A stretch of 63,829 bases of DNA. It comes from Longimicrobiales bacterium. Its GTDB lineage: Bacteria > Gemmatimonadota > Gemmatimonadetes > Longimicrobiales > Gaopeijiaceae. Location of the stretch: positions 1 to 63,829 of the forward strand of contig JAPKDG010000007.1 in the NCBI GenBank assembly GCA_028822645.1. Direction: 5' to 3'. A program made the position numbers and the translations under genes. How positions within the stretch are numbered: the first letter of the stretch is position 1; every line of letters begins with the position of its first letter. A model generated the notes under the pieces. That model was given only the letters and a program-made list of their open reading frames with translations. It was not told the origin of the DNA and searched no databases. Positions 4,655-59,719 of this stretch are shown in pieces.

Positions 4655-4702
4655 GATCAGCTCTGTGGCCTGGGCCAACTTCCCTCAACCAGATAGCTGA
4701 TC
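4655..4702. repeat. 8-bp perfect inverted repeat in the gap after the acyl-CoA ligase gene
   Basis: GATCAGCT at 4655-4662 is exactly complementary to AGCTGATC at 4695-4702, and each arm is preceded by a copy of CAGATAGC or a close variant. The 32-nt interval also contains TGGCC and GGCCA. This could be a terminator-like hairpin for the 1-4.6 kb cluster, but no T run follows. The remaining sequence to 4996 contains no convincing gene, tRNA or promoter that I can see. Confidence 0.4.
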
Positions 4703-4996
4703 CATGGCATAAGATCCTTTGTAATACCTGCGCCCATTAATGTGTGTTCGCACCTCGAATCATTGGTGTTATCAACAGTAGTACTGCTAATCCATGGTGA
4801 TGGCGGTTTTTATGCTTCGGTTTTTGCAGTAGTTTATAAGACGAATTCATGAGCCAGAACGTCAATTTCCTCTATATGGACAACGACTTGTTATGAGGAA
4901 AAATTTAGAGTTTGTGTAAATTTTTAGTTGAACAGTTTAGTCAGAGATCCCATATTAGATGGGTGAATAAATTTGAAACCTTAAAAAGCAGAAAAA

Positions 4997-5143
4997 ATGT
5001 TTATTCTTCCAGGCGGGTACGTATTTACTCATGTGGTTTTCTGGTCAGTCGTGGGGCTCGTTGCTCTTGGGACTAATGCTGTGGCAATAATCTTGGTGAC
5101 GGGGTTAGGATTGCTATTGTTTGAGTCTGTGAAAAAGGCCTAA
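4997..5143 (+). CDS. Small hydrophobic membrane protein (48 aa), hypothetical
   Basis: The ATG at 4997 opens a 48-codon frame ending in TAA at 5141-5143. The product is almost entirely hydrophobic (GGYVFTHVVFWSVVGLV, then a second apolar stretch AIILVTGLGLLLFESV) with a short basic end, KKA. That composition fits one or two membrane spans and is unlikely in random sequence. No good Shine-Dalgarno sequence precedes the ATG (only AAAAAGCAGAAAAA). It sits 24 nt before another small membrane protein, which supports a shared transcript. I do not recognise the family; it could still be a chance frame. Confidence 0.4.
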   Translation: MFILPGGYVFTHVVFWSVVGLVALGTNAVAIILVTGLGLLLFESVKKA

Positions 5144-5167
5144 AGTAATCTATAACATCAATTCGTC

Positions 5168-5416
5168 ATGACTGTATTTATTTATTCGCTACTTGGCATA
5201 GCTATGGTCCTATTCGGTTTTTATCTGGGCCGTGGAACCTACAGTCAAAGCATAGAGGAAGTAGAAGCACGACTCGGAAAAGGAAATCCGAGGCGCGCGA
5301 AACGTCACTTCATGTGGTTGAATTATATGAAAGCAGAAGATACAGCTTCGAAGAGACGCCGCCGCCATGAACCTATGAGAAGAGTGATACCACGGGATAG
5401 GGAAGGGGATTCTTAG
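5168..5416 (+). CDS. Small single-pass membrane protein with basic tail (82 aa)
   Basis: An 82-residue product with one N-terminal membrane span (FIYSLLGIAMVLFGFYLG) followed by a strongly basic, presumably cytoplasmic tail (RRAKRH, KRRRRHEPMRR). No catalytic motif is visible and I do not recognise the family. The ATG at 5168 follows the 48-residue frame by 24 nt. The pair lies between the acyl-CoA ligase and a broken methyltransferase gene. A span plus a basic tail is compatible with membrane anchoring near nucleic acid or phospholipid head groups, but that is only a compositional remark. Confidence 0.55.
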   Translation: MTVFIYSLLGIAMVLFGFYLGRGTYSQSIEEVEARLGKGNPRRAKRHFMWLNYMKAEDTASKRRRRHEPMRRVIPRDREGDS

Positions 5417-5489
5417 TAAAGATCTGGTATTAGTTCACAGATTTATTCGGGGTTATGCTAAATCATGGTCTGATTGAGGTTCGGAAACG

Positions 5490-6374
5490 TTGTTATTTCT
5501 CGATGATGTGTTTCTGGCCAGAATAATGCTATTCTCCTCTAGATATATGATTTTATGGAGTAGTGCTATCAACGAAAAATACAGGGAACATCTCGAGAGG
5601 CAGAGGAGAAGATATTCAAGGCCCCGTGACGTTTGGTCTAAGGTAGAAAGGCACGCCTTTGGTCGCGATGTTGGATTAAATGGATATACGAGCCCCTCTG
5701 AGGCAAAGGATTTGGTGGAATTTGTTGGAGTACCTGGGCCTGTGTTGGATTTGGGCAGTGGAGGAGGCTGGCCAGGCAAGGAGATTCTAATCAAATCAGA
5801 ACAGAGACTAGTGGTGGCGATGGATATAGTGCTAGATGGGCTGCAAGAATCTCAGCGAGGAATGGCTGACACAGGTGATGAAGAAAGGTTCCGTTGTGTA
5901 GTTGGTGATGGACAATCTTTGCCGTTTGCAGCAGAAAGTTTTGGATTGGTTTTGCACGCGGACGCTCTTTGTTGAATTCCCGATAAGCTCTCCGTGATGG
6001 GAGCAAGTCATACAGTGCTAAAAGGGGGAGGAATTTTAGCTGGATATTCCATACATGTGCGTCCAACTTTGTCCTCCAGAGAATCGATTAATGCGCGAGA
6101 ATTGGGGCCTTCCTTTGTTGGCGGTCTTGAAGACCCTGGATATTTGGCGAAGACGGCTGGCTTTGTAGACACAAGAGTCATGGATGTAACGCCCCACTTT
6201 AGAGAAACTTGTATAGCGTGGATTGAAGCCATGGAATTCTTCGAGGAAGAACTCAGGGCTGAATTGGATCAGTCGGACTACCGAGATGAACTGAGGAATA
6301 AAAAAGACATGCTTTGTGGTATCGACAAAGGCCTTTTGATGCGTTCGTTGATTGTTTGTAAAAAAGAAGGATAG
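5490..6374 (+). pseudogene. SAM-dependent methyltransferase interrupted by in-frame TGA
   Basis: Two open stretches in the same frame, 5490-5975 and 5976-6374, together make one class I methyltransferase. The first has motif I, VLDLGSGGGWPG, the acidic VVAMDIVLDG, and VVGDGQSLPFAAESFGLVLHADALC. The stop TGA at 5973-5975 follows directly. Translation beyond it continues as IPDKLSVMGASHTVLKGGGIL, which is exactly what follows in such enzymes (consensus ALxHIPD...RVLKPGG). Thus one codon, usually His, is replaced by TGA. TGA is an ordinary stop in neighbouring genes (for example the SDR at 1125-1127), so recoding is unlikely. The gene is probably inactivated or carries a sequence error. Its start is unclear: TTG at 5490, or ATG at 5526 or 5547. 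The substrate is unknown. Confidence 0.7.
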
Positions 6375-43173: not shown

Positions 43174-43587
43174 CTATTCGAAATTTGGACAAGGTGTATA
43201 GGTCTTTATTTCTCCATCATCGTACCATTCACCACATTCTGATCCCATGTTGTAGAAACCTTGCCATCTCAGGTTACCGTAGATGTCATAGAATTCATCT
43301 AGGCCATGCCGTTTGCCATCTTTGTATGTGGACTTGCTCCATAGTTGTCCGTTTTCATAGTATGACTCTTCTAGGCCATGTGCCTGGCCCATGTTGAAGA
43401 CTCCTTTCCCCCTTAGTTGTCCGTTCTGGTGATAGGTCTCAGTTGGTCCGTGGGCGTAACCGTTGTTGTAGGAAGTCCTGGACATTAGCTGTCCGTTCTC
43501 ATAATAGCTCTCAACTAAACCCTCTAATTCACCATCACCACAACTGGAGATTATAAAGGCTAAAGTGAGGAGAGCTACATGTTTCAT
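43174..43587 (-). CDS. YwqK/MORN-variant repeat lipoprotein
   Basis: A 137-residue lipoprotein (signal LALLTLAFIISSC, Cys16) made of about four repeats of the pattern 'G..E.YY.NGQL.S...Y..G..HG', with the ENGQL core at each copy; this is the MORN-variant repeat known from YwqK-type proteins. It ends in a cap ECGEWYDDGEIKTYTPCP. The function is unknown: YwqK of Bacillus is annotated as an antitoxin-like partner, but most members are just surface lipoproteins. AAAGGAGAG precedes the ATG at a proper distance. The same cap occurs in the broken gene at 51.6-53.0 kb. Confidence 0.85.
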   Translation of the reverse strand: MKHVALLTLAFIISSCGDGELEGLVESYYENGQLMSRTSYNNGYAHGPTETYHQNGQLRGKGVFNMGQAHGLEESYYENGQLWSKSTYKDGKRHGLDEFYDIYGNLRWQGFYNMGSECGEWYDDGEIKTYTPCPNFE

Positions 43588-43717: not shown

Positions 43718-44581
43718 ATGAACATAGTATACTTGAACGGCGAGTTTCTGCCCAAGGAAAGAGCACAAGTCTCGGTAGAAGACAGAGGCTTTCTGCTCTC
43801 GGATGGGATCTATGAAGTGACACCTGCCTATCGGGGCGAATTTTTCTGTTTGGACCAGCACTTGAATCGGCTGAGATGTGGGCTTAATGCTCTCCGGATC
43901 GAGTACGACCCCGAAGAGCTGATAGAAGTGCATCAAAAATTGCTTGATATTAATAATCTGACTGACTCTGAAGTAGCCATTGTATATTTGCAAATCACCC
44001 GAGGAGTAGCGGAGAGAGTTCATTATTTTCCTCCCGCTGATACTATTCCTACAGTATATGCGTTCGCGAAACAATTTCAGAGACCTTCAATAGAAAGTTG
44101 GCTAAAAGGGTTTAGAGCTGTGACCGTCCCTGATCGTCGTTGGTCTCGTGTAGATATTAAATCAATCAGTCTGCTCCCCAATGTCATGGCTGCACAGGCA
44201 GCCGTTGATGCTGGGGTAGATGATGCTTTGCTGGTGAAGAATGGTATCGCTCTGGAAGGTGCTCAGAACAACATTTTTGTAGTCAAAGGTGGTGTCTTGG
44301 TGACTCACCCTGCTAGCCAGGAAATATTGCACGGTATTACGAGATCTGTAGTGATCAAAATAGCTCATTCACTGGGAATCCCCATTCAGGAGCGGCCGAT
44401 TCAGGTAGAAGAGCTAGAGACAGTCGATGAGTTGTTTTTCTCGGGTACGACCACAGAAGTTAGACCGACCGTTGCCCTAGACGGTAAACCAGTAGGATGT
44501 GGGGAAGTCGGTACAGTATCAAAGGCAATCTATGCAGCTTTTAGAAAAAAGATTGGACAACCGATAGATCAAGATCTTTAG
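43718..44581 (+). CDS. D-amino-acid transaminase
   Basis: A class IV PLP transaminase of 287 residues. VEDRGFLLSDGIYEV at the start, the PLP lysine in RVDIKSISLLPNV (about Lys148), and SGTTTEVRPTVALDG at the phosphate end. The DIKS-LLPN form and the overall length fit D-alanine/D-glutamate transaminase more than branched-chain IlvE or aminodeoxychorismate lyase PabC. It can make D-glutamate for the stem peptide or recover D-amino acids from it, which suits its position before the recycling genes. The ATG at 43718 is divergent from the YwqK lipoprotein gene. Confidence 0.85.
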   Translation: MNIVYLNGEFLPKERAQVSVEDRGFLLSDGIYEVTPAYRGEFFCLDQHLNRLRCGLNALRIEYDPEELIEVHQKLLDINNLTDSEVAIVYLQITRGVAERVHYFPPADTIPTVYAFAKQFQRPSIESWLKGFRAVTVPDRRWSRVDIKSISLLPNVMAAQAAVDAGVDDALLVKNGIALEGAQNNIFVVKGGVLVTHPASQEILHGITRSVVIKIAHSLGIPIQERPIQVEELETVDELFFSGTTTEVRPTVALDGKPVGCGEVGTVSKAIYAAFRKKIGQPIDQDL

Positions 44582-44612: not shown

Positions 44613-45866
44613 CTAAGGGTAAATCAAGTACTGGTTCCTGGTGACTAGGAAGTCCTGTAGTTGGCTGGGCCAGTCACTGACGAGATCCTGGGCTGTAGAG
44701 CCTGCGACAATCCCCTCACGTAAGGAATCAGTGCCCGCCAAGCGATCAAAATGGGAAGTCAGCCATTCCCATTTGTCACTAGACATTTTATATGTCTCTA
44801 CTAGTAGTGCGACAGCTACTTCGGTGGGGTCGTAGTCGGGGGACGTAGCGATCAGCTGGACGCCGTATACCTCAATTCCGTCAAATTTTCCATCTCCTGG
44901 ATTCTGAGGTGTAAATGTCACTGCCTTGAACGATACACCTGCGAATTCATAGTGACGCATTCGTTCTGCCAGATCTTCTCCGTCTAGCCAGGGAGATCCG
45001 ACCACTTGAAATGGGTGATCGGTACCTCTACCGACTGATAGATAGGTTCCCTCAAACAAACAGGTCCCTGGGTAGTGAAGAGCGCTCTCGACAGTAGGCA
45101 TATTAGGAGAGGGTTGGATCCAGGGGAGATGGGTATCTTCGAAAGTCATGTTTCGCTCTAAGCCAGAAACTGGAACAATATGTAATGGGCCAGGAATATT
45201 GAACTCTCCTTGGTAGTATAGGGCCATTTCACCCGAAGTCATTCCGTGTCGCATTGGGATGGGGTACCTACCGACAAATGTGGAAAATTCAGGATACAAC
45301 ATATTCCCCTGGACATTGCCGCCTATTGGGTTGGGTCGGTCGAGTACTACAACTGAAATTCCATGTTCAAAGGCTGCTTCCATACTCAGAGTCATGGTGG
45401 AGGTATAAGTCCAGTAGCGGGCGCCGATGTCTTGTAAATCAATCAATAGGACTTCGACGTCTCCCAGCATTTCAGGGGTGGGTTTTCTATTGTTTCCATA
45501 CAGAGAATAGATAGAAAGACCAGTTCTTGGATCGACACCATCTTTTACTTCTTCTCCTGGGCCTAAATCTCCTCTGATCCCATGTTCGGGTGAAAAAAGA
45601 GCAATGAGATCCACTTGAGGATGATTAAAAATAAGGTCGATTGAGGAAAGCCCTTCCGAGTCCACCCCAGTTTGGTTTGTTACTAATCCCACTCTCTTGT
45701 CTTTGACTAAATGGAGAGAATCTTCCAGGAGCACCTGAATTCCGGGTCTTATTTCAGCAGAATCCTGTTGGATCGAGGCTTGGACAGAAGAGAGATTGGG
45801 GATGAGTAAAATCAGAAGCGTGAATAAGCGTATTAAGCAGGATTGTGATCTTTTTAAGAACTTCAT
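44613..45866 (-). CDS. namZ: Exo-beta-N-acetylmuramidase NamZ (DUF1343)
   Basis: A 417-residue DUF1343 protein. In Bacillus this family (NamZ) removes MurNAc residues from the non-reducing end of peptidoglycan fragments. The signal peptide LFTLLILLIPNLSSVQA (about residues 14-30) exports it. Family blocks: KRVGLVTNQTGVD, FSPEHGIRGD, LIDLQDIGARYWTYTSTM, VVLDRPNPIGG, SPNMPTVESALHYPGTCLFE and LSVGRGTDHPFQVVG. It is transcribed away from the two NagZ-type genes; the start is ATG 45866, and the 75 nt to the next gene may hold back-to-back promoters. Its substrate is the product left when NagZ removes GlcNAc, so the two enzymes could shorten glycan chains alternately. Confidence 0.9.
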   Translation of the reverse strand: MKFLKRSQSCLIRLFTLLILLIPNLSSVQASIQQDSAEIRPGIQVLLEDSLHLVKDKRVGLVTNQTGVDSEGLSSIDLIFNHPQVDLIALFSPEHGIRGDLGPGEEVKDGVDPRTGLSIYSLYGNNRKPTPEMLGDVEVLLIDLQDIGARYWTYTSTMTLSMEAAFEHGISVVVLDRPNPIGGNVQGNMLYPEFSTFVGRYPIPMRHGMTSGEMALYYQGEFNIPGPLHIVPVSGLERNMTFEDTHLPWIQPSPNMPTVESALHYPGTCLFEGTYLSVGRGTDHPFQVVGSPWLDGEDLAERMRHYEFAGVSFKAVTFTPQNPGDGKFDGIEVYGVQLIATSPDYDPTEVAVALLVETYKMSSDKWEWLTSHFDRLAGTDSLREGIVAGSTAQDLVSDWPSQLQDFLVTRNQYLIYP

Positions 45867-45941: not shown

Positions 45942-47849
45942 ATGAGAATCCAAAAGACTCCTCAAGTCGTCTTTAATAATAGAGTGTTGAGAAACCTATG
46001 GATCCTAGCGATCCTTGTTTCTTCATGCTACAGACAGGCTCCTATTCAGGATTCCTTCGAGAATGTCACCCAGCAACGCTCCACCCCTGATCCCGATCTG
46101 CCTGCAGTCCCTTATTCTTCTCAAGAACAACCGACTCTGGATGCTGAAGAGTCTGATCACTCTGACGACTGGGCACAGGTAATCTTAAGTGAGATGACCT
46201 TGAGGGAAAAAGTGGCTCAATTGATGATGCCCTGGATTCTGGGAGATTTTTCACCAGAAGGGTCGGATGACCACGACAGGGTAGTGAGTATGATCGACTC
46301 ATTCGGGATCGGTGGAGTTATTGTATCGGTGGGCTCCCCCAGTGAGGTGGCAGTAAAGCTTAATGATCTGCAAGGGCACTCAGAGCATCCTCTTTTAGTG
46401 GCTGCCGATTTAGAGACTGGTGCTGGTTTCCGTTTTGGAGGAGGAATTGACGGTCCTACGAACATCGTTTTGGGTGGAGCTACCGTGTTCCCGTCTTTGA
46501 TGGCTTTCGGGGCAGCAGGTGATCCAGAATTGGCCTATGAACTCGGCCGAATCACAGGCTTGGAAGCCAAAGCTATCGGTGTACATGTTCCGTTTGCTCC
46601 CGTACTAGATGTCAACAACAATCCAGAAAACCCCATCATCAATATTCGCTCATTCGGTGAAGATCCAGCAGAAGTTGCCAGGATGGGAGTTTCATTTGTT
46701 CGCGGAATCCAAGACAACGGATCTATAGCAACGGGCAAACATTTTCCTGGACATGGAGATACGGGAATTGATTCTCACAACGCTTTGCCAGTTTTTGAAC
46801 ATGGCAAGGAGCGATTGCAAGATATTGAGCTGGTGCCGTTTCAGGCTGCGATTGATGCTGGGATGCGAGCTATTATGACCGCTCATATTGCAGTGCCAGA
46901 CCTTAGTGAAGACAGATTGCCCGCAACTCTTACAGAAAAAGTGCTGACTGATCTCCTTCGTACGCAGCTAGGATTTGAGGGCATCGTTTTCACCGATGCG
47001 ATGGACATGGGAGCTGTGACCAGGACGTTTCCCGATGGTGAGGCCTCGGTGCGGGCTGTCCTGGCTGGAGCGGACGTTATCCTGATGCCTAGTAATGTTG
47101 GGGATGCCATAGAGGCTATTGTGAGTGCTGTGGAGTCGGGGCGTTTGACCGGGGAAAGGATTGATAAATCAGTCAAAAAAATTCTTCAATTGAAAGAGGA
47201 GATGGGACTCCATAGAGAACGTAGGGTTGATGTAAATAAGGTTCCGTCAGTGGTAGGGATTCCTGCCCACAAAGAGGTGGCACAAACGGTTGCTGATCGA
47301 TCCGTCACACTCATTCGCAATGGTGGAAACTTACTCCCATTGCTAGGTACACGAACTGCACGTGTGATGTCAGTCTCCTACCAGAATGGAAATAATCCAT
47401 TGTCTGGTCGCTATTTTGATGCGCGGCTCCGTCAAACCTATCCTAGATTGAGTCGGACAGCGGTTAATAGATCATCTCACCCAGCTAAGTATGATCAGCT
47501 TCTTAGCCAAGCGGGACGGTCCAATCTAGTGGTTGTTTCCATTTATTCTAACTTTGCTGGGCAGGTCGAATTACCGGAAGAGACCGTGGATTTTATTTCG
47601 GAACTTTCCAGTCGTAATATCAGTCATGTTGTTGTTTCTTTTGGCAGCCCTTATCTGATTTCAGAATTTCCCGAAGTTCAGGGTTATTTATTAGCCTGGA
47701 GCTCAAGCCAGGTAAGCCAGGTGGCTGCTGCGGATGCCTTATTAGGTAAATTTGCTATCACTGGGAAGGTTCCGACTAGCATGAATCCTCACTTCGAGAT
47801 AGGAGATGGAATCCAGGTAGCGTCCAAGGGAGAAATGAATGGCAGGTAG
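45942..47849 (+). CDS. NagZ-type GH3 beta-N-acetylglucosaminidase, lipoprotein
   Basis: A GH3 hydrolase. KHFPGHGDTGIDSHNALPV (Lys266 onward, counted from this start) is the NagZ-specific loop with the His/Asp acid-base pair, and FTDAMDMGAV carries the nucleophile (Asp352). A C-terminal GH3 accessory domain follows (about 430-630). NagZ removes non-reducing GlcNAc from peptidoglycan fragments; Gram-negative NagZ is usually a short cytoplasmic enzyme, whereas this one is long and probably lipid-anchored (ILAILVSSC). The frame is open from TTG 45870, but ATG 45942 directly precedes the signal peptide and is preferred. It overlaps the next gene by 11 nt. Confidence 0.9.
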   Translation: MRIQKTPQVVFNNRVLRNLWILAILVSSCYRQAPIQDSFENVTQQRSTPDPDLPAVPYSSQEQPTLDAEESDHSDDWAQVILSEMTLREKVAQLMMPWILGDFSPEGSDDHDRVVSMIDSFGIGGVIVSVGSPSEVAVKLNDLQGHSEHPLLVAADLETGAGFRFGGGIDGPTNIVLGGATVFPSLMAFGAAGDPELAYELGRITGLEAKAIGVHVPFAPVLDVNNNPENPIINIRSFGEDPAEVARMGVSFVRGIQDNGSIATGKHFPGHGDTGIDSHNALPVFEHGKERLQDIELVPFQAAIDAGMRAIMTAHIAVPDLSEDRLPATLTEKVLTDLLRTQLGFEGIVFTDAMDMGAVTRTFPDGEASVRAVLAGADVILMPSNVGDAIEAIVSAVESGRLTGERIDKSVKKILQLKEEMGLHRERRVDVNKVPSVVGIPAHKEVAQTVADRSVTLIRNGGNLLPLLGTRTARVMSVSYQNGNNPLSGRYFDARLRQTYPRLSRTAVNRSSHPAKYDQLLSQAGRSNLVVVSIYSNFAGQVELPEETVDFISELSSRNISHVVVSFGSPYLISEFPEVQGYLLAWSSSQVSQVAAADALLGKFAITGKVPTSMNPHFEIGDGIQVASKGEMNGR

Positions 47850-50844
47850 AACAGTGGGTATGTGCACCCTATTCCTTCTGCTAGCTATCGGAGATTTTCA
47901 TCCTACAGCAGCTCAGCAGCTCAATCATTCTTCGTCTGGATACGACTTAGCGGATGACGACCAAGTTTGGGTTGAAGAGACTTTAGCTTCGATGAATCTT
48001 AGGCAGCAAATAGCACAATTGATCATTCAATGGTTGCCTGGGTCGTACGCCTCTACGAACAGTGACGAATTCATGGAATGGGCTGGCTGGATACAAAACG
48101 ACCAAATCGGGGGCATTTACTTATCCATTGGGCTTCCACACTCCTACGCTGCAAAGATCAACGAGCTTCAGGATTTATCTACAGTTCCCTTGTTAGTCAC
48201 GTCTGATTTTGAGAATGGTGGACCAGGAATGCGTATCAACCACTCATATGCGTTGCCTTCACTTTTGCCCCAGGGCGGAGGTACTAGCTTCCCGCCTACG
48301 ATGGCGTTTGGAGCCATTGGAGATGCTGACATCGTTCGCGAATTTGCTCGGATCACGGCAGTGGAAGCCAAAGCTTTAGGGGTCAGCTTGAACTTTGCTC
48401 CGGTGCTCGACGTTAACAATAATCCGAATAATCCAGTTATTAACACCAGATCATTTGGGGAGGATCCTATTGAAGTAGCCCGTCTCGGTGCAGCCTATAT
48501 AGAAGGAGCGCATCAGGGTGGATTATTAGTCACAGCGAAGCATTTCCCGGGGCATGGGGACACCGACACGGACTCGCATATAGGGTTGCCAGTGATCAAC
48601 GCTGGATTGGATCGTTTGAGAAATCTGGAACTAATACCCTTTGAGGAAGCTGTCGATGCCGGCGTTGATGCTGTGATGACAGCTCATATTGCTCTATCTG
48701 AACAGAATGGATCTGGCAGTCTTCCAGCGACCTTGGATCCAAGGTTTATGGAAGGACTGCTCCGTGAAGAAATGGGATTCAACGGTCTACTTTTCACGGA
48801 TGCGCTGACTATGGGTGCTCTCGCTGCACAATATGGAACTGGAGAACTTGCCGTATTAGCGATTGAAGCTGGTAACGACGTGTTGCTGATGCCTAACGAT
48901 ATCGGTGAGACCATTGACGCAATCCATTCAGCGGTCGAAACAGGTAGAATCGCTTCTGGAAGGATCGAGTCCTCAGTGCGACGTATCTTAGGGACTAAGG
49001 CGCGGATTGGCTTGCATCAAAGTAGGACAGTCGACTTGAATGCCGTTGATGAAATTGTTGGCAGGCAAGAGCATCTAGATTTTGCGGCTTTAACCGCTGA
49101 GCGATCGCTGACTTTGCTGAGAGATGAAGATCATGTAATCCCTGTTGAGTTGGGTGAAACGCTGAATGTCTTTAGTCTCACGTATGCGAGAGAAGAACAC
49201 TTGGTTGCAGGAAGGGAATTGGATGCCAGACTGAGAAGCAGGGTTCGGCGGGTGACTTCTGGTAGGGTGGGTCCCAATACTTCTTCCGAAGAGTATGAGA
49301 CGTTGCTTGCCGCTGCGTCGAATAGTGACTTGGTTTTGGTTAATATCTTCCTCCCACCAGTTTCGGGACTCGGAGAAATCGGGGTATCGGAGAAGCTCAA
49401 GAGTTTCATAACCTCTAGGAACGGTATCGCTCCGATGATGGTTACGTCTTTTGGGAATCCTTACTTATTGCAAGAACTATCGGACTCTCCCGGTTACCTT
49501 CTGGCATGGGGCGATCACGAGGTGTCACAAAGAGCCGTGGTTAGAGGGCTTTTTGGTGATATTGGCCTGAGTGGAAAACTGCCAATATCCATTCCTCCGT
49601 TTTATTCAGTAGGTGACGGGTTGGATCGACCATCGGGTGCGAGTTTGCAGCAAGATGCTGATGTACTAGGAACGCACCCTGAGACCGTTGGTATGTCGGA
49701 AGATGGCTTGGAAGCACTCGATCAACGAATCATGCAGGGTATAGCCGATGGTGCCACTCCGGGTGTGGCTCTAGCTGTCGCAAGAAAAGGATATCTGGTC
49801 AGGTTGAAGGGATATGGAACGCTAGATTGGGACGAATCCTCTGCAAAAGTCGGAGTAAACTCGATTTACGACTTAGCGTCGCTCACTAAAGTGGTGGGCA
49901 CCACGACTGCGGCTATGGTGTTGATTGATGAGGGCCGCTTAAGCTTGGATGATCCAGTGCTGAAACATCTGCCATGGTGGGCAGAGAAAGGTTCTTCTAA
50001 GGCTACCGTCACGATCGGTCAGTTGTTGCTACACAGGGCAGGCTTGCCTCCTTTTCGAAGGTTCTATCATGAAATGGAGGGAGAAGCAGCTTACAAAGAT
50101 GCTATTTCGGATCTGCAGCTGGATTATGAGCCTGGGTCGGCAACCGTGTATTCAGATATTGGCTTGATGACATTGGCTTTTGTGGTCGAAGAGGTGTCTG
50201 GTCGTCCTTTTGAGCATTTCTTGAAGCAGAATATTTGGGACAAACTTGGAATGAAGGACACTGCCTTTAATCCATCAGGGGACTTGAGAGGCAGAATTGC
50301 GCCGACTGAAATGGATACGGTGTTTCGCCATGTACATGTGCATGGCGAGGTCCATGATGAAAATGCTTATGCGCTGGGAGGTGTGGCAGGACACGCCGGA
50401 CTTTTCTCGACGATCTCCGACTTAACTCTTTTCGGGCAAATGTTGCTTAATGGGGGCTTGCTTGAAGGCTGTCTTTCAGTCGATGGGAGTGATGGAGAGA
50501 TCTGTGTCCCAGGTATGGAGGAAAGTGTCAGAATTGTTTCAGAAAGATTGGCCGACTTATTTACAAAGCGTTTCGACGATGCTGCTTCGCGTGCGATTGG
50601 ATGGGATACGCCCTCGGGAAGGTCTTCGGCCGGTGATTATTTTACTTCTGAAGCCTTCGGACATACTGGTTACACAGGGACGTCGATATGGTTAGACCCG
50701 GAACTCGATTTGTTTGTCGTACTCCTTACGAATAGAGTGAATCCGACTCGGGATAATCAGAAGCACGTTGCTCTTAGGAGATCAGTACACGACCTGGTTG
50801 CACTTGCTATTCAGGATGGAACAGTGGTGAAACGCAGCAACTAA
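47839..50844 (+). CDS. NagZ-type GH3 enzyme fused to serine beta-lactamase-like domain
   Basis: A 1001-residue exported fusion. Signal peptide 1-26 (LFLLLAIGDFHPTAAQ). The GH3 part (about 35-590) has KHFPGHGDTDTDSHIGLPV at 234 and the nucleophile Asp321 in LFTDALTMGALA. The C-terminal part (about 610-995) is a class C beta-lactamase/AmpH-like serine hydrolase: SLTK (Ser681, Lys684), YSD (Tyr771) and HTG (942), the complete catalytic triad of motifs. Such hydrolases act as D,D-peptidases or esterases on muropeptides. One polypeptide could therefore trim both sugar and peptide. It is paralogous to the preceding gene, suggesting duplication then fusion. Confidence 0.9.
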   Translation: MAGRTVGMCTLFLLLAIGDFHPTAAQQLNHSSSGYDLADDDQVWVEETLASMNLRQQIAQLIIQWLPGSYASTNSDEFMEWAGWIQNDQIGGIYLSIGLPHSYAAKINELQDLSTVPLLVTSDFENGGPGMRINHSYALPSLLPQGGGTSFPPTMAFGAIGDADIVREFARITAVEAKALGVSLNFAPVLDVNNNPNNPVINTRSFGEDPIEVARLGAAYIEGAHQGGLLVTAKHFPGHGDTDTDSHIGLPVINAGLDRLRNLELIPFEEAVDAGVDAVMTAHIALSEQNGSGSLPATLDPRFMEGLLREEMGFNGLLFTDALTMGALAAQYGTGELAVLAIEAGNDVLLMPNDIGETIDAIHSAVETGRIASGRIESSVRRILGTKARIGLHQSRTVDLNAVDEIVGRQEHLDFAALTAERSLTLLRDEDHVIPVELGETLNVFSLTYAREEHLVAGRELDARLRSRVRRVTSGRVGPNTSSEEYETLLAAASNSDLVLVNIFLPPVSGLGEIGVSEKLKSFITSRNGIAPMMVTSFGNPYLLQELSDSPGYLLAWGDHEVSQRAVVRGLFGDIGLSGKLPISIPPFYSVGDGLDRPSGASLQQDADVLGTHPETVGMSEDGLEALDQRIMQGIADGATPGVALAVARKGYLVRLKGYGTLDWDESSAKVGVNSIYDLASLTKVVGTTTAAMVLIDEGRLSLDDPVLKHLPWWAEKGSSKATVTIGQLLLHRAGLPPFRRFYHEMEGEAAYKDAISDLQLDYEPGSATVYSDIGLMTLAFVVEEVSGRPFEHFLKQNIWDKLGMKDTAFNPSGDLRGRIAPTEMDTVFRHVHVHGEVHDENAYALGGVAGHAGLFSTISDLTLFGQMLLNGGLLEGCLSVDGSDGEICVPGMEESVRIVSERLADLFTKRFDDAASRAIGWDTPSGRSSAGDYFTSEAFGHTGYTGTSIWLDPELDLFVVLLTNRVNPTRDNQKHVALRRSVHDLVALAIQDGTVVKRSN

Positions 50845-51631: not shown

Positions 51632-52792
51632 CTAGATATTATTGTTACTACTCTCTGAGAATTTTCTATAGACTTCCATCCCTTGATCTAGGAAAAAACG
51701 GTACTCTTCAAAGACATGTTTTTTCCTGGGTCTTCTAGAGAATATGCCACCGAAAGGCCTGTCAATGCTCAAGCTCTTCATCTCCTCGAAAATGACCAAA
51801 TGTGTACCTACACCTTGTAAACAAAGCTTTTTTTGAATCGTAATTTGGGTTGTAAGGAGTCTCATGATATCTTCTGTGAAAAATAGACGGATGGAGTCTT
51901 CCACTGGTCCTTTCAGTAGGAATTGCTTTGAAAATTCAGTACCCATACGGCTCAATTCGAAATCGATATCTTTCTCTTTCGTAAAGAAATTGACTGCTTT
52001 GCTAAAAACCTTTTGTGGGGACAGCGAAAAATATGGAAGGTCTAGTTTTGGGTCACTAATATGTATCACGGTTTGCATTTTTTTAGCTTTACCCTGATTG
52101 AATACATATTCCAGAATTGTCACTGTGACTTCCTGCTCTAATCCAAATTTTTCGGGGTCACCGATTAGAGGATCTGTGACTCGCTCCTGTTTGGTCTTCG
52201 TAAAAATTGGAAGCGTGGGCAAATTCTTTAAGGTTTTTGTACTATATCTCTTTTCCTCTGGGGTTTGGAACAACCCAAAGCCAAACCGGGAACGGTAGGG
52301 GAAGTCGGGTACGAGAGTCATCCCCAACGACTCGGCTAGTTCTGCGAATTTCTTTTTTCGCTTGGGTGCGTTTAGTCGCCGCCTGATCGCTATAATGACA
52401 ATAAAAAGGAAAGCAATTCCAAAAAGAAAGTTATCCTCCAGTATCCTCATCGCAGGTTGATTGTTGACAAAAAATCCAGAGCAGGGTGGGTAGATGTAGG
52501 CTTCGCCTTCCTCTATCCATTCACCACACTCCGTATTAAGAACAAAGGTACCTTTCCTCAAAAGTTGTCCGTTTTCGTCGTAACGTTCGTAGGGGCCATC
52601 AATTAGAGTGTTCAACCTATCTCCGTCGCCATCGGGCAATAGATCTTTGAAACTCCCGAAGTTGCCTGTGCTGCGTAATTGGCCGTTTTCGTGATAGGAC
52701 TTAAAAGGGCCGATTGCTTTACCGTTCGTGTCGGTGCCTTTCCTAGAAAGTTGGCCGTTTTCGTGATAAAACTCGTACGGTCCATCTGGCAT
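51632..52792 (-). CDS. YwqK-repeat membrane protein, 3' portion of an interrupted gene
   Basis: A 386-residue frame beginning inside a repeat array: MPDGPYEFYHENGQLSRKG and two more HENGQL/DENGQL units (about residues 1-80), the CGEW...YPPC cap (about 86-104), one membrane span (about 118-136, FLFGIAFLFIVIIAIRRR), and a cytoplasmic domain of about 250 residues. That domain (AELAESLGMTLVPDFPY, FGLFQTPEEKRY, FELSRMGTEFSKQFLL) resembles a widespread uncharacterised bacterial domain. The repeats continue upstream in the same frame past a TAA at 52820-52822, so ATG 52792 is probably not the original start. Whether this part is still translated is unknown. Confidence 0.7.
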   Translation of the reverse strand: MPDGPYEFYHENGQLSRKGTDTNGKAIGPFKSYHENGQLRSTGNFGSFKDLLPDGDGDRLNTLIDGPYERYDENGQLLRKGTFVLNTECGEWIEEGEAYIYPPCSGFFVNNQPAMRILEDNFLFGIAFLFIVIIAIRRRLNAPKRKKKFAELAESLGMTLVPDFPYRSRFGFGLFQTPEEKRYSTKTLKNLPTLPIFTKTKQERVTDPLIGDPEKFGLEQEVTVTILEYVFNQGKAKKMQTVIHISDPKLDLPYFSLSPQKVFSKAVNFFTKEKDIDFELSRMGTEFSKQFLLKGPVEDSIRLFFTEDIMRLLTTQITIQKKLCLQGVGTHLVIFEEMKSLSIDRPFGGIFSRRPRKKHVFEEYRFFLDQGMEVYRKFSESSNNNI

Positions 52793-53125: not shown

Positions 53126-54547
53126 GTGCTTTTTCTTTACCTCCTTGGAATCACGGGGTGGGGCGTTTGGCTGGGTAGAGGTCAAAGCGGTAGTTCGGAT
53201 TACTTTCTCGGCAACAGAGGTTTACCGTGGCCAGCAGTGATGTTGTCCATCGTGGCGACCGAAACTAGTACCCTTACTTTCCTAAGTATTCCAGGGATTT
53301 CTTATTTAGGAACATTGACGTTCCTTCAGGTAACGTTCGGCTATCTACTCGGCAGAATTGTTATAGCTGGGCTACTTTTGCCGGCGTATTTTTGCGGCGA
53401 CTTGAGTACGGCTTATGTTTTGCTCGGCTCTCATTTCGGAGAAACTACTCAGAAGGTATCCTCCGCAGTGTTTATGGTCACCCGACTTTTGTCTGATGCA
53501 GTACGTCTATTCGTCACTGCAATTCCTATGGCATTCATTACGGGATGGAGTTATCCAGTGTCCATCGGAGTCATCGGCTTGGCGACGGTGGTCTACACGT
53601 ATTTCGGGGGAATCAAGGCGGTGGTGTGGGTCGATGTGGTCCAGATGTGTCTGTATGTAGGAGGAGCCATGGTTTCTATAATTGCTCTTCAGACGTTAGT
53701 TCCTGGTGGCTGGTCTGAGATCATTACCAGTGCTCGAGAAGCAGGTAAAATGACGATAATCGAAAGTTCATTTGATCTAAGTGTGCCATACACGATTTGG
53801 GCAGGAGTGATCGGAGGGGGTTTTCTCACCATGGCATCGCATGGGACCGATCAACTCATCGTTCAAAGAATTTTAAGTTGTGGGGATATCACTGCTGCAA
53901 AAAAAGCAATGATAGGCAGCGGCATGGTTGTTCTTGGCCAAATCTTCATTTTTCTCATGGTAGGCTTAGGGTTGTGGAGATACTATGACGCGGCAACCTT
54001 TGCAAGTTCGGATCAGATCTTTGCAGAATTTGTAGTTGAGGCCCTGCCTCCTGGGATAAGCGGATTGCTTGTGGCAGGAGTTTTTGCTGCTGCGATGTCA
54101 TCTCTTTCTTCTTCGATCAATGCATTGGCATCTGCGACGACCTATGATTTTTTCGCTGTGATGTCTCAAAAAGATGATGCTGCACTCCTTAAGGTAGGAA
54201 AATTGTCCACGTTGGTATGGTCAGTCCTTTTGATCGGTGGAGCGATCCTCTTTATACCGTTCAGTGAAGGGTCGGCCGCTGTTGAAGTGGCTCTCAGTGT
54301 TTCTTCCATTGCGTACGGAGGTCTTTTGGGGGCGTTTCTAGTAGCGGTTTTTTCTATTTCCAAGGATCAGGTGAGTGTGATCAGTGGAATGGTCTTGGCA
54401 ATAGGAACGGTCACGTTCATTTGGCTTTTTGCCAGAGACGCAGTTGCATGGCCTTGGTTTGTCCCCATAGGAAGCGCTATCACGGTCCTAGTAGCTGGAA
54501 TACTAGGGAGAGTGCGAGTTAGTTCTAGTCGAGAGTCGAAGAGCTAA
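53126..54547 (+). CDS. Sodium:solute symporter (SSS family)
   Basis: A 473-residue LeuT-fold importer with about 13 spans. SGSSDYFLGNRGLPWPAV, the unwound first core helix around SIVATETSTLTFLSIPG, GGIKAVVWVDVVQM and the sodium-site region LLVAGVFAAAMSSLSSSINA are typical of SSS. Given the flanking glycosidases and kinase, amino sugars or other peptidoglycan fragments are likely substrates; family members next to namZ/nagZ genes are commonly so placed. The GTG at 53126 falls inside the first span; the frame stays open upstream with the fitting residues NSFTPVDFT, and a CTG at 53096, 5 nt after GAAGG, may be the real start. Confidence 0.9.
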   Translation: MLFLYLLGITGWGVWLGRGQSGSSDYFLGNRGLPWPAVMLSIVATETSTLTFLSIPGISYLGTLTFLQVTFGYLLGRIVIAGLLLPAYFCGDLSTAYVLLGSHFGETTQKVSSAVFMVTRLLSDAVRLFVTAIPMAFITGWSYPVSIGVIGLATVVYTYFGGIKAVVWVDVVQMCLYVGGAMVSIIALQTLVPGGWSEIITSAREAGKMTIIESSFDLSVPYTIWAGVIGGGFLTMASHGTDQLIVQRILSCGDITAAKKAMIGSGMVVLGQIFIFLMVGLGLWRYYDAATFASSDQIFAEFVVEALPPGISGLLVAGVFAAAMSSLSSSINALASATTYDFFAVMSQKDDAALLKVGKLSTLVWSVLLIGGAILFIPFSEGSAAVEVALSVSSIAYGGLLGAFLVAVFSISKDQVSVISGMVLAIGTVTFIWLFARDAVAWPWFVPIGSAITVLVAGILGRVRVSSSRESKS

Positions 54548-54553
54548 AACATC

Positions 54554-55489
54554 ATGGACCTTTTCCTGGGAATTGACGGAGGTGGTACGCGCACCAGAGT
54601 GGTGCTTATGGATGAACACGAAGTGGAGCTCGGACGCATGGAAGGCACTGCCACTGGTCTCGACAAAAGTAGCGTGAATGATTCCGTGGAAGAGATTGAG
54701 ATGTTGTGTGGCAAAGTGCTTGGTGGCATTGAATTTTCGAAGGTTAACTTATGTGCAGGTTTAGCGGGTGCAGGGGATACTGCCATTAAGAAATCTTTAG
54801 AAAACGCAATTCAAGAACGGGGGATTGCAAAGAGTGTATCAGTCAGGACCGATGCAGAGGTGACCTTCATGGACGCCTTTGGACTGGATGAGCCGGGCAT
54901 CCTTCTTATTGCGGGGACTGGTTCAACAGCACTGGGTAGAGGAATCAATGGTTCGAAAAGAGTCGGTGGCTGGGGGAGTATCATAGGAGATGAGGGCAGC
55001 GGATATCGGATAGGATTGGAATCCCTTAGATCAGTCATCAAAACTCAGGATGGAAGGATGTCGAGTACTTCCTTGTTGACCGAGGTGCTCGGTGCAGTAG
55101 GGGTAGAAGCTCCTCGAGATTTAGTTACATGGGTATCGAGCGCTGAAAAATCAGAAGTAGCCGCGTTAGCCAACTCGGTTTGTCGGCTAGCTAATGAAGG
55201 AGAAAAGACTTCGTCCTTTATTGTGGGAAAAGCAATAGATGATTTGATGGTTCATGTACAAACATTGGTGGAGCATTTGGGGCCTTGGACATCATCTCCT
55301 CAGATTGTTTTGCATGGGGGTTTGATTGATTCTTCTGGGCCGCTCCACCATGACCTCATTTCGTCTATGAAGCAGCTGGACTGTGTCATTTTCGAGGGGA
55401 AAATCGATGGTGCAAGAGGGGCCTGTAGGATGGCGGCTTGTATTCAGGATGCCGAACAGAACAGGTCGAACTTGGGAGTGTTTCCCTGA
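54554..55489 (+). CDS. BadF/BadG-type amino-sugar kinase
   Basis: A 311-residue ASKHA-fold kinase. FLGIDGGGTRTRVVLMDE is the first phosphate motif, LLIAGTGSTALGRG the second, GGWGSIIGDEGSGYRIG a hallmark of the N-acetylglucosamine kinase branch, and IVLHGGLIDS the adenosine motif. Relatives include GlcNAc kinase and MurK, which phosphorylates both GlcNAc and MurNAc. It begins 6 nt after the symporter gene, so import and phosphorylation are very likely coupled. The MurNAc-6-phosphate etherase MurQ, needed next for MurNAc use, is not in this window. Confidence 0.85.
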   Translation: MDLFLGIDGGGTRTRVVLMDEHEVELGRMEGTATGLDKSSVNDSVEEIEMLCGKVLGGIEFSKVNLCAGLAGAGDTAIKKSLENAIQERGIAKSVSVRTDAEVTFMDAFGLDEPGILLIAGTGSTALGRGINGSKRVGGWGSIIGDEGSGYRIGLESLRSVIKTQDGRMSSTSLLTEVLGAVGVEAPRDLVTWVSSAEKSEVAALANSVCRLANEGEKTSSFIVGKAIDDLMVHVQTLVEHLGPWTSSPQIVLHGGLIDSSGPLHHDLISSMKQLDCVIFEGKIDGARGACRMAACIQDAEQNRSNLGVFP

Positions 55490-56384: not shown

Positions 56385-57224
56385 CTATCGAAGAGCCTCT
56401 TCTAAAGCTGTCGCAGCATCGGTGGAACCATCGCGGTACTTCACGATGACAGGGGCATATAGCTGTATATGTTTTTCGGTTGCAAAAGTTCCTCCGGCTG
56501 GCCTAGACCCTGGAACAACGACTGCACCCGCAGGAATTGTCAGAGGTTTTCCTGGTTGGGAACGGTAAGTGGTTTCACGAACAAGGTCATAAACTGTAGT
56601 TGCTGAAGTCAGTTGGACCCCTGGAGCTAGTACGGCGCCCTCTTCCACCAATGTTCCCTCGAATACTCCTGTGTTCCCGCCGATCAATGCTTCGTTCTCA
56701 ATGATTACAGGTCGCATCCCTATGGGTTCGAGCACACCTCCAATTTGACATCCAGCACTGAGATGTACCTTTCGTCCAACTTGGGCACAAGAACCTACTA
56801 ATGCGTGAGAGTCAATCATCGTGTCGTCATCTACATAGGCGCCGATATTGACGAATGCAGGAGGCATGATGATTACGTTCGTCCCCAGAAAAGATCCCCT
56901 GCGGACGGATGTGCCTCCTGGAACAATACGGATGTTATGATCTAGGCCCCTGGTGTCACGAAGGGGTAGAGTGTCTTTGTCAAAGAACGGGCTAGGTTCG
57001 TTGGCGAACAACGAGTTTTGACCTATTTGAAAGGTCAGCAGAATCCCTGATTTGACCCAGTCGACAGCTTTCCATTCACCTCCCTGCTTTTCAGCAGACC
57101 TAATCACTCCAGCGTCGAGTGCATCCAGGAATTTTTCTACTAGAGATTTTACTTCTGCTAGATCGTCCAGTTCTGTCTGTCCGGTAAAGCTTAAAATTCC
57201 TGCTTTGAGATCGTCTTTTGTCAT
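56385..57224 (-). CDS. dapD: Tetrahydrodipicolinate N-succinyltransferase
   Basis: Third enzyme of the succinylase branch of lysine and diaminopimelate synthesis; succinylates tetrahydrodipicolinate. It is 279 residues. An N-terminal helical domain is followed by left-handed beta-helix hexapeptide turns: VIIMPPAFVNIGAYVDDDTM, IDSHALVGSCAQVG, HLSAGCQIGGVLEP, VIIENEALIGGNTGVFEGT. This identifies DapD rather than the acetyl-transferring DapH. ATG 57224, 13 nt after dapA. Implies that DapC and DapE act elsewhere in the genome. Confidence 0.95.
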   Translation of the reverse strand: MTKDDLKAGILSFTGQTELDDLAEVKSLVEKFLDALDAGVIRSAEKQGGEWKAVDWVKSGILLTFQIGQNSLFANEPSPFFDKDTLPLRDTRGLDHNIRIVPGGTSVRRGSFLGTNVIIMPPAFVNIGAYVDDDTMIDSHALVGSCAQVGRKVHLSAGCQIGGVLEPIGMRPVIIENEALIGGNTGVFEGTLVEEGAVLAPGVQLTSATTVYDLVRETTYRSQPGKPLTIPAGAVVVPGSRPAGGTFATEKHIQLYAPVIVKYRDGSTDAATALEEALR

Positions 57225-57237
57225 TTAGTGTCCTTCA

Positions 57238-58146
57238 CTATATCAGCCCTACTTGTCGGAGAGTTTCTTGCAGTTCCGGTACGAATTTTGGCGATAGAGG
57301 TACCAAGGGCAAACGATACCGAGCTTTCATTCTGCCCATCATTTCAAGGGCGGCTTTGACCGGTATAGGGTTTGTCTCCAAGAAATTGGCCCGCATAAGC
57401 GGTAAAAGATGGTAGTGCAGGTCTCGTGCTTTGTCATATTCACCTGCGAGAGAAGCTCCTACCATGTCAGACATCAAACGAGGTGCTTCATTAGCCACAA
57501 CGGAGATGACCCCATCCGCCCCAGCCACTATCAAAGGAAAAGTAAGGTTGTCCTCTCCTGATAATATGCTAAACCCAGGGGGTCGATCTCTTAATAGGCT
57601 CATGACCTGGTCGAAATCAGCTGAGGATTCTTTTACCCCTACAATATTTTTTGTTTTAGCAAGTTTTAGAACTGTTTCTGGAAGCACATTTGAGGAAGTT
57701 CGTCCTGGGACGTTATAAATTACGATTGGACAGTCTACCTGTCCCGCTAGTGTGCGGTAATGTTCCACAAGACCTTCTTGGGTAGGCTTATTGTAGGCGG
57801 GACTGGAGGAAAGTATGCCATCGATTCCCAGCTCAAGAACAGCCTGAGCTCTGGTTACAACCTCTGCAGTGTTGTTTCCTCCCACTCCTGCCAGGATTTT
57901 GGCCCTGCCGTCTGCAGCTCTTACAGTCTCGCGGATCACAAGAAATTGTTCCTCTGTAGACATGGTTACACTTTCGCCTGTGGTTCCGGCTGGAATCAGC
58001 AGTTGGACACCGTTTTCTATTTGAAATTCGATATGTTTTCGAAAAGATTGGATATCGATCGAAAGATCCTCAGAAAATGGCGTAACCAAAGCTACTCCAA
58101 GTCCATGGAAATGAAGGTTGTTGGGATTGTTTTTGTCTATCGTCAT
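57238..58146 (-). CDS. dapA: 4-hydroxy-tetrahydrodipicolinate synthase
   Basis: Condenses aspartate semialdehyde with pyruvate, the first committed step to lysine and diaminopimelate. A 302-residue TIM barrel with PAGTTGESVTMSTEEQ, the Tyr in VIYNVPGRTSSN and the Schiff-base Lys in IVGVKESSADF. The GTTGE loop and the Arg-containing VPGRTS are those of true DapA, in contrast with the second DapA-family protein at 60.9 kb. The ATG overlaps the dapB stop by 4 nt. Confidence 0.95.
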   Translation of the reverse strand: MTIDKNNPNNLHFHGLGVALVTPFSEDLSIDIQSFRKHIEFQIENGVQLLIPAGTTGESVTMSTEEQFLVIRETVRAADGRAKILAGVGGNNTAEVVTRAQAVLELGIDGILSSSPAYNKPTQEGLVEHYRTLAGQVDCPIVIYNVPGRTSSNVLPETVLKLAKTKNIVGVKESSADFDQVMSLLRDRPPGFSILSGEDNLTFPLIVAGADGVISVVANEAPRLMSDMVGASLAGEYDKARDLHYHLLPLMRANFLETNPIPVKAALEMMGRMKARYRLPLVPLSPKFVPELQETLRQVGLI

Positions 58147-58883
58147 CGAGTGTCCTCTCTGGGAAACATGTCACGCAAGGTGAAAATTCCAACTTTTCCG
58201 ACGATCCATTCTGCAGCCAGTACTGCTCCTAGAGCAAATCCATCACGGTTACTTGCCTGATGAGCGATTTCTATACGTTCATGTTCATTCTCAAATCTTA
58301 TAACGTGACTCCCAGGATTTTCTCCTTCTCTTGTACTGGTGATATAAAGAGTATCAGAGTCAGGTTGTGTGGGAGGGGAGCCTGAAGCCCATTTATGTTT
58401 GGAGGAGATTTGATCAACTAATGTATTGGCGATAGTGATTGCTGTTCCACTGGGCTCATCGACTTTGTGTTTATGATGAGATTCATGGATGGTCACTTCA
58501 TAATCCTTAACAAAGTTCGACATTTGACCTGCAAATTTTGCGATCTCCTGTACTATATGGACACCTAAAGAGAAATTCGGAGCGTAGATCAACCCAGTGC
58601 TAGTAGCATTCACTGTTGCAGTAGTTTGTGGGAGGTGATCATACCAGCCAGTTGTTCCAGAGACAGTATTAATGCCAGCTTTGGCCAAATCTTCGATATT
58701 TCTGGGAGCTGTTTTCGGCGTACTGAATTCAATGGCGACATCTGCCTCGGTCAGAATCTGGGAATCAAGTATCCTTGTCGGCAAAAGGGGATCGAACTTT
58801 GCTATGATATCATGGCCTCGTTTCGTAGCGATTTCTTCTACAGCTTGCCCCATCCGTCCATAACCCACTAGAACTAGCTTCAA
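58143..58883 (-). CDS. dapB: 4-hydroxy-tetrahydrodipicolinate reductase
   Basis: Reduces the DapA product. LVLVGYGRMGQAVEE is the NAD(P) loop, IEFSTPKTA and SGTTGWYD follow, APNFSLGVH and HESHHKHKVDEPSGTA hold the catalytic residues. The frame is open to 59084, but that extension lies inside the neighbouring gene and lacks similarity. The TTG at 58883, preceded by GAGGAAAG, gives the exact family start and 246 residues. Middle gene of the operon suhB-like-dapB-dapA-dapD. Confidence 0.93.
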   Translation of the reverse strand: MKLVLVGYGRMGQAVEEIATKRGHDIIAKFDPLLPTRILDSQILTEADVAIEFSTPKTAPRNIEDLAKAGINTVSGTTGWYDHLPQTTATVNATSTGLIYAPNFSLGVHIVQEIAKFAGQMSNFVKDYEVTIHESHHKHKVDEPSGTAITIANTLVDQISSKHKWASGSPPTQPDSDTLYITSTREGENPGSHVIRFENEHERIEIAHQASNRDGFALGAVLAAEWIVGKVGIFTLRDMFPREDTR

Positions 58884-58912
58884 ATTATCTTTCCTCTTTG
58901 GAGTCGGGGTAC

Positions 58913-59719
58913 TTAACGTATGACGTTTTTTAACCTTTGAGCCATAGTTTGAGAATTTGCACCCAAGACGGTTCCCGCGTCCAAGGGAAGTTTGTCTGTT
59001 TCGATCCGACTGACAAATCCTCCTGCCTCTTCGACAATCAACTGCCCGGCTGCAAAATCCCAGGGGTCTAAGTAAAGCTCCCAAAACCCATCGAACCTAC
59101 CTTCGGCGAGGTAACAGAGGTCTAGGGCGGCTGACCCACCTCTCCGCACTCCCCCGCTGGTTTTTAATACCCGCTCTAGTTGGCGGACGTATTTTTCTAT
59201 GAGAGTTTCTTTTTTGAATGGAAATCCAGTCCCTATTAAGGAGCGGTCAAATTTTTGAACGTTGGATACGTTTATGGGTTTATCGTTTTTCCAGGCCCCT
59301 TGGCTTTTTGCGGCCCACCATTTTTCTCCAGTGGGCCCACAAGAGACTGCACCGACTATCACCAAGCCGTTCATAGAGAATGCAACAGAAGAACAGTGCA
59401 TAGGGTGACCGTGGAGATAGTTGGTAGTTCCGTCCAGGGGATCGATGATCCAGGCGGGACCCTCAAGAGTGGATAATAATGGGGGATTATCCGGTAATTC
59501 TTCCGAGATTATTGTGTGCTGAGGGTACGCATCCTTGATGATCTGGATACTAGCTTTTTGGGCTTCAAAATCTGTTACAGAAACAAAATCCGCTCGACCT
59601 TTGGAAGAAGCATCTTCCGGGTTTATTGTGCCTGAGTGTTCACAGTGGATAGTAGTCGCAGCGTCTGCGGCCACCCGGGCCGTGTGCAGGACTTCGGTAA
59701 GATCAGTAAAGTCACTCAT
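58913..59719 (-). CDS. Inositol monophosphatase family protein
   Basis: A Mg-dependent, lithium-sensitive phosphatase fold of 268 residues when started at ATG 59719 (MSDFTDLTEVLHTARVAADA); the longer frame to 59809 adds residues unlike the family. Metal motifs: ISEELP, IIDPLDGTTNYLHGHP and WDFAAGQLIVEEAGG, with GAVSCGPTGEKWWA. Members dephosphorylate inositol phosphate, histidinol phosphate or other sugars, and SuhB also binds the transcription apparatus; which applies here is not visible. First gene of the dap operon, 29 nt before dapB and divergent from trpS. Confidence 0.9.
   Translation of the reverse strand: MSDFTDLTEVLHTARVAADAATTIHCEHSGTINPEDASSKGRADFVSVTDFEAQKASIQIIKDAYPQHTIISEELPDNPPLLSTLEGPAWIIDPLDGTTNYLHGHPMHCSSVAFSMNGLVIVGAVSCGPTGEKWWAAKSQGAWKNDKPINVSNVQKFDRSLIGTGFPFKKETLIEKYVRQLERVLKTSGGVRRGGSAALDLCYLAEGRFDGFWELYLDPWDFAAGQLIVEEAGGFVSRIETDKLPLDAGTVLGANSQTMAQRLKNVIR

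Follow-up and report, generated by a model that had tools for sequence, protein, structure and literature searches.

A single chain that joins a GH3 glycosidase to a domain of the PF00144 (beta-lactamase) family has already been published. RmNag3 (Rmar_0925) of Rhodothermus marinus carries a signal peptide, GH3 and then a beta-lactamase domain, and its authors named relatives in Salinibacter and Rhodohalobacter (accessible text of PMC6987092). According to the same text, the GH3 half is a beta-N-acetylglucosaminidase active at high temperature on pNP-GlcNAc and chitooligosaccharides, and a role in peptidoglycan turnover was proposed, citing NagZ and AmiE of Bacillus subtilis. We found no assay of the fused beta-lactamase-like domain in the open literature, including the accessible part of PMC6987092, nor a structure model in the latter. 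The amiE gene of B. subtilis (product UniProt O05213), a neighbour of nagZ and ybbC within the murQRP cluster, encodes an N-acetylmuramyl-L-alanine amidase of the PF00144 family (PMC5061867, PMC10653849, accessible parts). NagZ and AmiE hydrolyse muropeptides sequentially (accessible part of the review PMC6403190), a degradation that takes place outside the cell, and both appear among the enzymes that do not attack intact peptidoglycan (accessible part of PMC10653849). A DD-carboxypeptidase activity is ascribed to Escherichia coli PBP4B in the title of a 2006 paper.

The window analysed here, a stretch of 63,829 nucleotides from a Longimicrobiales bacterium, carries a further example of the RmNag3 architecture in a richer gene setting. 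The two proteins share the domain order (GH3 domains 1 and 2, then a C-terminal PF00144 domain) and a signal peptide, but RmNag3 has neither a GH3 twin nor adjoining recycling genes. The enzyme families are also those of B. subtilis NagZ (YbbD), AmiE (YbbE) and YbbC (ybbC being a gene that we take to be namZ), likewise gathered in one MurNAc gene cluster; there, however, they are separate polypeptides accompanied by the PTS transporter MurP, whereas the window joins a NagZ and an AmiE-like domain in one chain and has an SSF symporter plus a kinase in place of the PTS. E. coli PBP4B (YfeW) resembles the second domain in sequence (about 31% identity), in its motif set and in the position of its gene in murQ-murP-yfeW, but it is unfused and the window domain falls under the PBP4B family cut-off. 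Stand-alone serine hydrolases of Deinococcus and Halorussus group with the fused domain and keep the same gene company (nagZ/murQ/AnmK/NamZ), as separate genes.

We propose, with a probability of roughly two in three, that the fusion is an exported bifunctional NagZ-AmiE-type muropeptide-rescue enzyme within a MurNAc-scavenging pathway. The N-terminal NagZ-type GH3 domain would use an Asp-His retaining mechanism to take GlcNAc off the non-reducing end of soluble muropeptides; the C-terminal domain, of the AmiE/PBP4B group, would then form an acyl-enzyme at Ser681 and free the stem peptide from MurNAc. The first step, on GlcNAc-MurNAc-peptide, is suggested by the intact residues and the family, and the second, at the MurNAc-L-Ala amide, by kinship and gene company. 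NamZ would free MurNAc from MurNAc-ended fragments. In this way, fragments would be broken down outside the cytoplasm, yielding GlcNAc, MurNAc and peptides, and the sugars would be fed into metabolism, through putative uptake by the SSF symporter and putative phosphorylation by the MurK-like kinase, with MurQ and AnmK encoded elsewhere in the genome. Soluble muropeptides are the most likely substrates, because NagZ is exo-acting and the B. subtilis NagZ and AmiE are described as leaving intact peptidoglycan unhydrolysed. The features of the locus are collected in Table 1.

Table 1. Features of the tandem GH3 locus and its neighbours, in window coordinates.
Feature	Position	Strand	Evidence
NamZ-family exo-beta-N-acetylmuramidase, divergent from the GH3 pair	44613..45866	-	PF07075 271.3 bits (NamZ_N), PF20732 150.4 bits (NamZ_C)
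Stand-alone NagZ-type GH3, 635 aa, probable lipoprotein	45942..47849	+	PF00933, PF01915, alignment with YbbD/NagZ 3bmx
Lipoprotein-type signal, ends VSSC	45942..46028	+	by eye
Asp277-Ser-His279, counterpart of the NagZ Asp-His dyad	46770..46778	+	aligned with D232-S-H234 of 3bmx
Asp352, GH3 nucleophile (FTDA), stand-alone copy	46995..46997	+	invariant, 10/10 sequences of alignment A2
GH3 + PF00144 fusion, 1001 aa, proposed NagZ-AmiE bifunctional enzyme	47839..50844	+	Pfam, AlphaFold2 model
Sec signal peptide, cut after residue 25	47839..47913	+	by eye
GH3 N-terminal (TIM barrel) domain of the fusion, residues 54-384	47998..48990	+	PF00933 265.1 bits (cut-off 27)
Asp245-Ser-His247 dyad of the fusion	48571..48579	+	D245 and H247 each 80/80
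Asp321 nucleophile of the fusion	48799..48801	+	79/80
PF00144 serine-hydrolase domain, residues 627-982	49717..50784	+	210.2 bits; VIA-align Z ~41 to 6kjh, 7uda, 4ivi
SLTK (SxxK), nucleophile Ser681, residues 681-684	49879..49890	+	S681 and K684 each 80/80
YSD (YxN/YxD motif), residues 771-773	50149..50157	+	common to PBP4B and Deinococcus stand-alone enzymes
HTG, residues 942-944	50662..50670	+	inside GHTGxTGT common to PBP4B and other MurNAc-operon members
Na+/solute symporter (SSF), candidate importer of freed sugars	53126..54547	+	PF00474, TIGR00813
BadF-family sugar kinase, MurK/NagK-like	54554..55489	+	PF01869; best PDB match 8zo3, E 7e-31

The two tandem GH3 frames are open along their entire spans. 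The preliminary description had read them as paralogous NagZ-type enzymes overlapping by 11 nt, and both points hold: the second gene starts with the ATG at 47839 and the TAG of the first ends at 47849, while the Pfam matches and the alignment to B. subtilis YbbD agree with the family assignment. AGGGAG lies just 5' of the second ATG. The longest frame of the first gene begins at TTG 45870; the alternative ATG at 45942 is a plausible start, since the N-terminus read from it runs to a lipobox-like motif recognised by eye. Stand-alone GH3 copies at three related loci (L032, L033 and L070) likewise have lipobox-like motifs. For the fusion, the signal peptide points to probable export; lipobox-like motifs occur in the fused relatives of L034, L035 and L070, and its membrane anchoring may therefore vary. 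The promoter scan (11 against a shuffle mean of 15.2) and the terminator scan (11 against 12.7) did not exceed the shuffled sequences.

The first gene matched PF00933 with 292.7 bits (cut-off 27) and PF01915 with 43.4 bits (cut-off 31), and B. subtilis YbbD/NagZ (3bmx) with an E-value of 9.7e-74. The second matched PF00933 and PF00144 (Table 1); its PF01915 score of 24 bits is under the cut-off of 31, yet residues 11-575 of its structure model align with 3bmx. Both genes have the FTDA nucleophile and the NagZ loop KHFPGHGDTxxDSH, which align with 3bmx (the printed alignment being that of the first gene). Thus, the catalytic loops attributed to both genes in the preliminary description were found in each, as an Asp-His dyad and an Asp nucleophile.

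SLTK, YSD and HTG occur in the second gene only, without counterpart in the first, which agrees with the earlier view that only this gene has a fused serine hydrolase with intact SxxK, YxD and HTG motifs, and that two intact active sites lie in one chain, probably exported (signal by eye). Comparing the window with 79 related fusion loci, D245, H247, S681, K684 and Y771 were each conserved in 80/80, D321 in 79/80 and D773 in 77/80; H942 was conserved in 79/80, partly by selection, since the 79 loci had been picked with two patterns, one of which covers HTG. The conservation of the active sites across the 80 loci is far above chance.

The top NCBIfam match of the fused domain was PBP4B (NF002968), with 176.1 bits, under the family cut-off of 385 and far ahead of AmpH (59.5 bits). 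In E. coli K-12, the PBP4B gene (yfeW) lies within murR / murQ-murP-yfeW. Stand-alone relatives of the domain adjoin murQ in Deinococcus D7000, lie between AnmK and nagZ, followed by BadF and murQ, in Deinococcus KNUC1210, and, in the archaeon Halorussus aquaticus, form part of a cluster with AnmK, NamZ and nagZ. A quick ML tree built from 47 rows (14 forks open; AmpC, AmpH, Halorussus and Subdoligranulum on long branches) placed the fused domains in one group with those of Deinococcus, Halorussus, Gemmatirosa and Subdoligranulum, with a support of 84. Next to this group came the two PBP4B rows, together with two Acidobacteriota domains fused to NamZ, and outside lay AmpH, AmpC and a pair of stand-alone enzymes from Dyadobacter. 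Furthermore, the fused, PBP4B and Deinococcus members have in common the motif set YSD / VHDExA / GHAGLFS / GHTGxTGT, with variants such as the YSC and VHDPLG of Halorussus, and neither AmpH nor AmpC has this set. Among the 15 PF00144 places of the genome, the full set was found in the fusion alone (one of the others, L144, is a partial frame of 193 aa with HAGLF), and with PBP4B and Deinococcus as queries the fusion scored more than 140 bits, compared with 96 for the runner-up. As judged from scores, motifs and tree, the fused domain falls with the PF00144 hydrolases encoded in MurNAc operons, and a kinship with AmiE can be inferred through the stand-ins Deinococcus, Halorussus and PBP4B. An AmpH-like endopeptidase was ruled out by motifs, scores and tree. 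Fifteen beta-lactamase-family places, several of them long frames with extensions and one of the AmiE/PBP4B group, were counted in a genome of 2.04 Mb.

The preliminary description had spoken of a peptidase, a term that found no support: the domain groups with MurNAc-operon hydrolases whose B. subtilis member, AmiE, is an amidase. A peptidase activity would return if the fused domain were a PBP4B-like DD-carboxypeptidase/endopeptidase trimming stem peptides while the GH3 half removed GlcNAc. PBP4B is, after all, the best NCBIfam match and is annotated as a penicillin-binding protein, with DD-carboxypeptidase activity by the cited title, and the SxxK and HTG motifs fit. However, the match reaches 176 of the 385 bits that the family demands, PBP4B itself sits in a MurNAc operon, where an amidase would make more sense, and the stand-alone relatives adjoin nagZ, murQ and AnmK. 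We consider this alternative unlikely.

The NagZ-AmiE reading draws on the gene context as well. Both NamZ_N and NamZ_C of the divergent gene upstream of the pair scored above their cut-offs, and this is the sole NamZ_N match in the genome; PF00933 has two matches, which are the tandem pair itself. The best PDB match of the BadF-family kinase, 8zo3, is an N-acetylmuramic acid/N-acetylglucosamine kinase. MurQ, above its cut-off, and an adjoining AnmK are encoded on another contig. With NamZ, SSF, kinase and MurQ/AnmK all found, the parts of a MurNAc-scavenging route are therefore present (outer exo-enzymes, candidate importer, kinase and etherase), and the link to peptidoglycan fragments made in the preliminary description stands on the NamZ, SSF and kinase neighbours, MurQ and AnmK lying elsewhere. 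A D-amino-acid-transaminase-like gene (43718-44581) and diaminopimelate-pathway genes (56385-59084) are also near the locus. In a locus of the same genus (L003), the SSF gene follows the fusion immediately; in the window, DUF6174 and MORN genes on the opposite strand lie between the two. The symporter is 97% identical to the L003 copy (4648-5991) and the adjoining fusion just 79%, which indicates unequal conservation or recombination. On either side of the locus lie genes for MORN_2-repeat proteins, at 43174-43587 and 51632-52792 (minus strand).

Genome contigs were scanned with a fused alignment as query, and the best 80 of 590 relatives were taken. GH3 and PF00144 lie in one frame in 79 of these 80 loci, the remaining one (L036) being cut by a contig end; as the query was the fused alignment, these counts are silent on how often the domain is unfused. 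Within the best 80, the fusion occurs in at least nine phyla, judged by record titles, and 48 loci belong to Bacteroidota. In flanks of up to 10 kb, often cut by contig ends, NamZ was found at 19/80 loci: 8/9 in Gemmatimonadota, 5/6 in Acidobacteriota, 3/48 in Bacteroidota, 2/3 in Pseudomonadota and 1/2 in Planctomycetota. NamZ, MurQ, SSF or BadF was near the fusion in 4/48 Bacteroidota loci and in none of the five Rhodothermota loci, within the fetched flanks. By these counts, gene context ties the fusion strongly to MurNAc in Gemmatimonadota, the phylum of the window, and weakly elsewhere. As for AmiE, the PF00144 domain has the SxxK serine and MurNAc genes keep it company in the window and its relatives, weakly so in Bacteroidota. 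The scarcity of recycling genes near the fusion in Bacteroidota and Rhodothermota, or beside RmNag3, speaks against the NagZ-AmiE reading.

With somewhat less confidence than for the window protein, we still hold it probable that the so-called beta-lactamase half of the widespread GH3-PF00144 fusions is an AmiE-type muramyl-L-alanine amidase, and that these proteins are single-chain two-step muropeptide processors. If so, the product of NagZ would be the substrate of the amidase, many phyla would gain a recycling route outside the cytoplasm, and Acidobacteriota would have fused this kind of amidase domain to NamZ as well. Many proteins recorded as a glycosidase plus a beta-lactamase would then be bifunctional processors of cell-wall fragments rather than resistance genes, and an amidase in this position would explain how Gemmatimonadota and related phyla can process muropeptides before uptake, while these are still outside the cytoplasm.

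The AlphaFold2 model of the fusion (alignment of 50) had a mean pLDDT of 91 and a pTM of 0.69, with two well-formed domains and a low-confidence linker at about residues 571-590 of the mature chain. The closest fold to the GH3 half (model residues 11-575) was B. subtilis NagZ 3bmx (Z 54.0, rmsd 2.2, 533 residues aligned). Model residues ~580-970 matched 6kjh (Z 41.0, rmsd 2.2, 337 aligned), EstG 7uda (Z 40.8, rmsd 2.4, 343 aligned) and 4ivi (Z 40.7, rmsd 2.7, 351 aligned), so that esterases and an acyltransferase are among the best solved matches of the second domain; such a search cannot tell amidase from esterase, and the absence of an AmiE structure from its lists is no evidence. The predicted fold confirms two complete domains and is silent on substrate and channelling.

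These folds fit a different picture, in which the fusion would be a glucosaminidase for chitin oligosaccharides and its serine hydrolase would have some other ester or amide as substrate. Chitobiose and chitopentaose are hydrolysed by RmNag3 (accessible text of PMC6987092), and the natural substrate may therefore be chitin fragments. Against this stand the NamZ, kinase and SSF neighbours, MurQ and AnmK in the genome and the motif set of the MurNAc operons, and an esterase fold match says little on substrate; we regard the chitin reading as distinctly improbable.

GH3 NagZ is an exo-enzyme that releases single GlcNAc residues. For this reason, neither the processive action nor the removal of disaccharide-peptide units advanced in the preliminary description could be supported. 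That one enzyme processively strips such units from peptidoglycan would draw on the two active sites of one probably exported chain, but, besides the exo-action, Pfam found no peptidoglycan- or carbohydrate-binding domain, and PMC10653849 (accessible part) counts NagZ and AmiE of B. subtilis among the enzymes that spare intact peptidoglycan; the probability of this reading is very small. A beta-lactamase conferring drug resistance, suggested by the PF00144 family and by weak class C matches, is scarcely credible and, as a class C enzyme, was ruled out by motifs, scores and tree: NF033085 gave 58.4 bits against a cut-off of 415, identity to E. coli AmpC was 22% over part of the domain, and YSD and HTG stand where class C enzymes have their YxN and KTG motifs.

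Among the best 30 loci from relatives (L002-L031, counting that of the window), 29 have the fusion in one frame, L009 being cut, and 23 have an unfused GH3 next to it within flanks of about 1.5 kb. In a 63-row GH3 tree, the 19 unfused copies of the window's family formed one group (support 100), nested with fused copies through a joining fork with a support of 82. From another family, two unfused copies joined different fused copies. This tree was a quick one, rooted on two distant rows and oversampled for fused sequences, and 82 is a weak support at the key fork. A recent tandem duplication unique to this genome was ruled out, as the two copies fall in separate family-wide groups. The nesting of unfused among fused copies suggests that the amidase domain was lost after duplication of the fused gene; the simplest reading of the tree, which we put forward tentatively, is that the fused gene was duplicated and its amidase half lost more than once. 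The upstream gene of the pair, a second, lipoprotein-like NagZ without the amidase, most likely derives from a fused ancestor.

Some of the loci deserve separate mention. Two contigs titled Gammaproteobacteria (L032 and L035) carry Gemmatimonadota-type loci like that of the window and are probably mislabelled bins; the GH3 of L032 is nearly identical to that of L033 in the GH3 tree. On a plasmid of Halorussus aquaticus (L116, 2195-10760), AnmK, an Amidase_2 protein, an AmiE-like serine hydrolase, NamZ and NagZ are clustered, which suggests that a murein-less archaeon scavenges bacterial peptidoglycan, and NamZ matches were also found on plasmids of several further haloarchaeal genera. In two Acidobacteriota loci (L045, 7317-9908, and L052, 7311-9779, both on the minus strand), NamZ itself carries, by Pfam, a fused PF00144 domain that belongs to the same group, and these genes adjoin the GH3-PF00144 fusion and murQ, so that both exo-glycosidases carry an AmiE/PBP4B-like domain.
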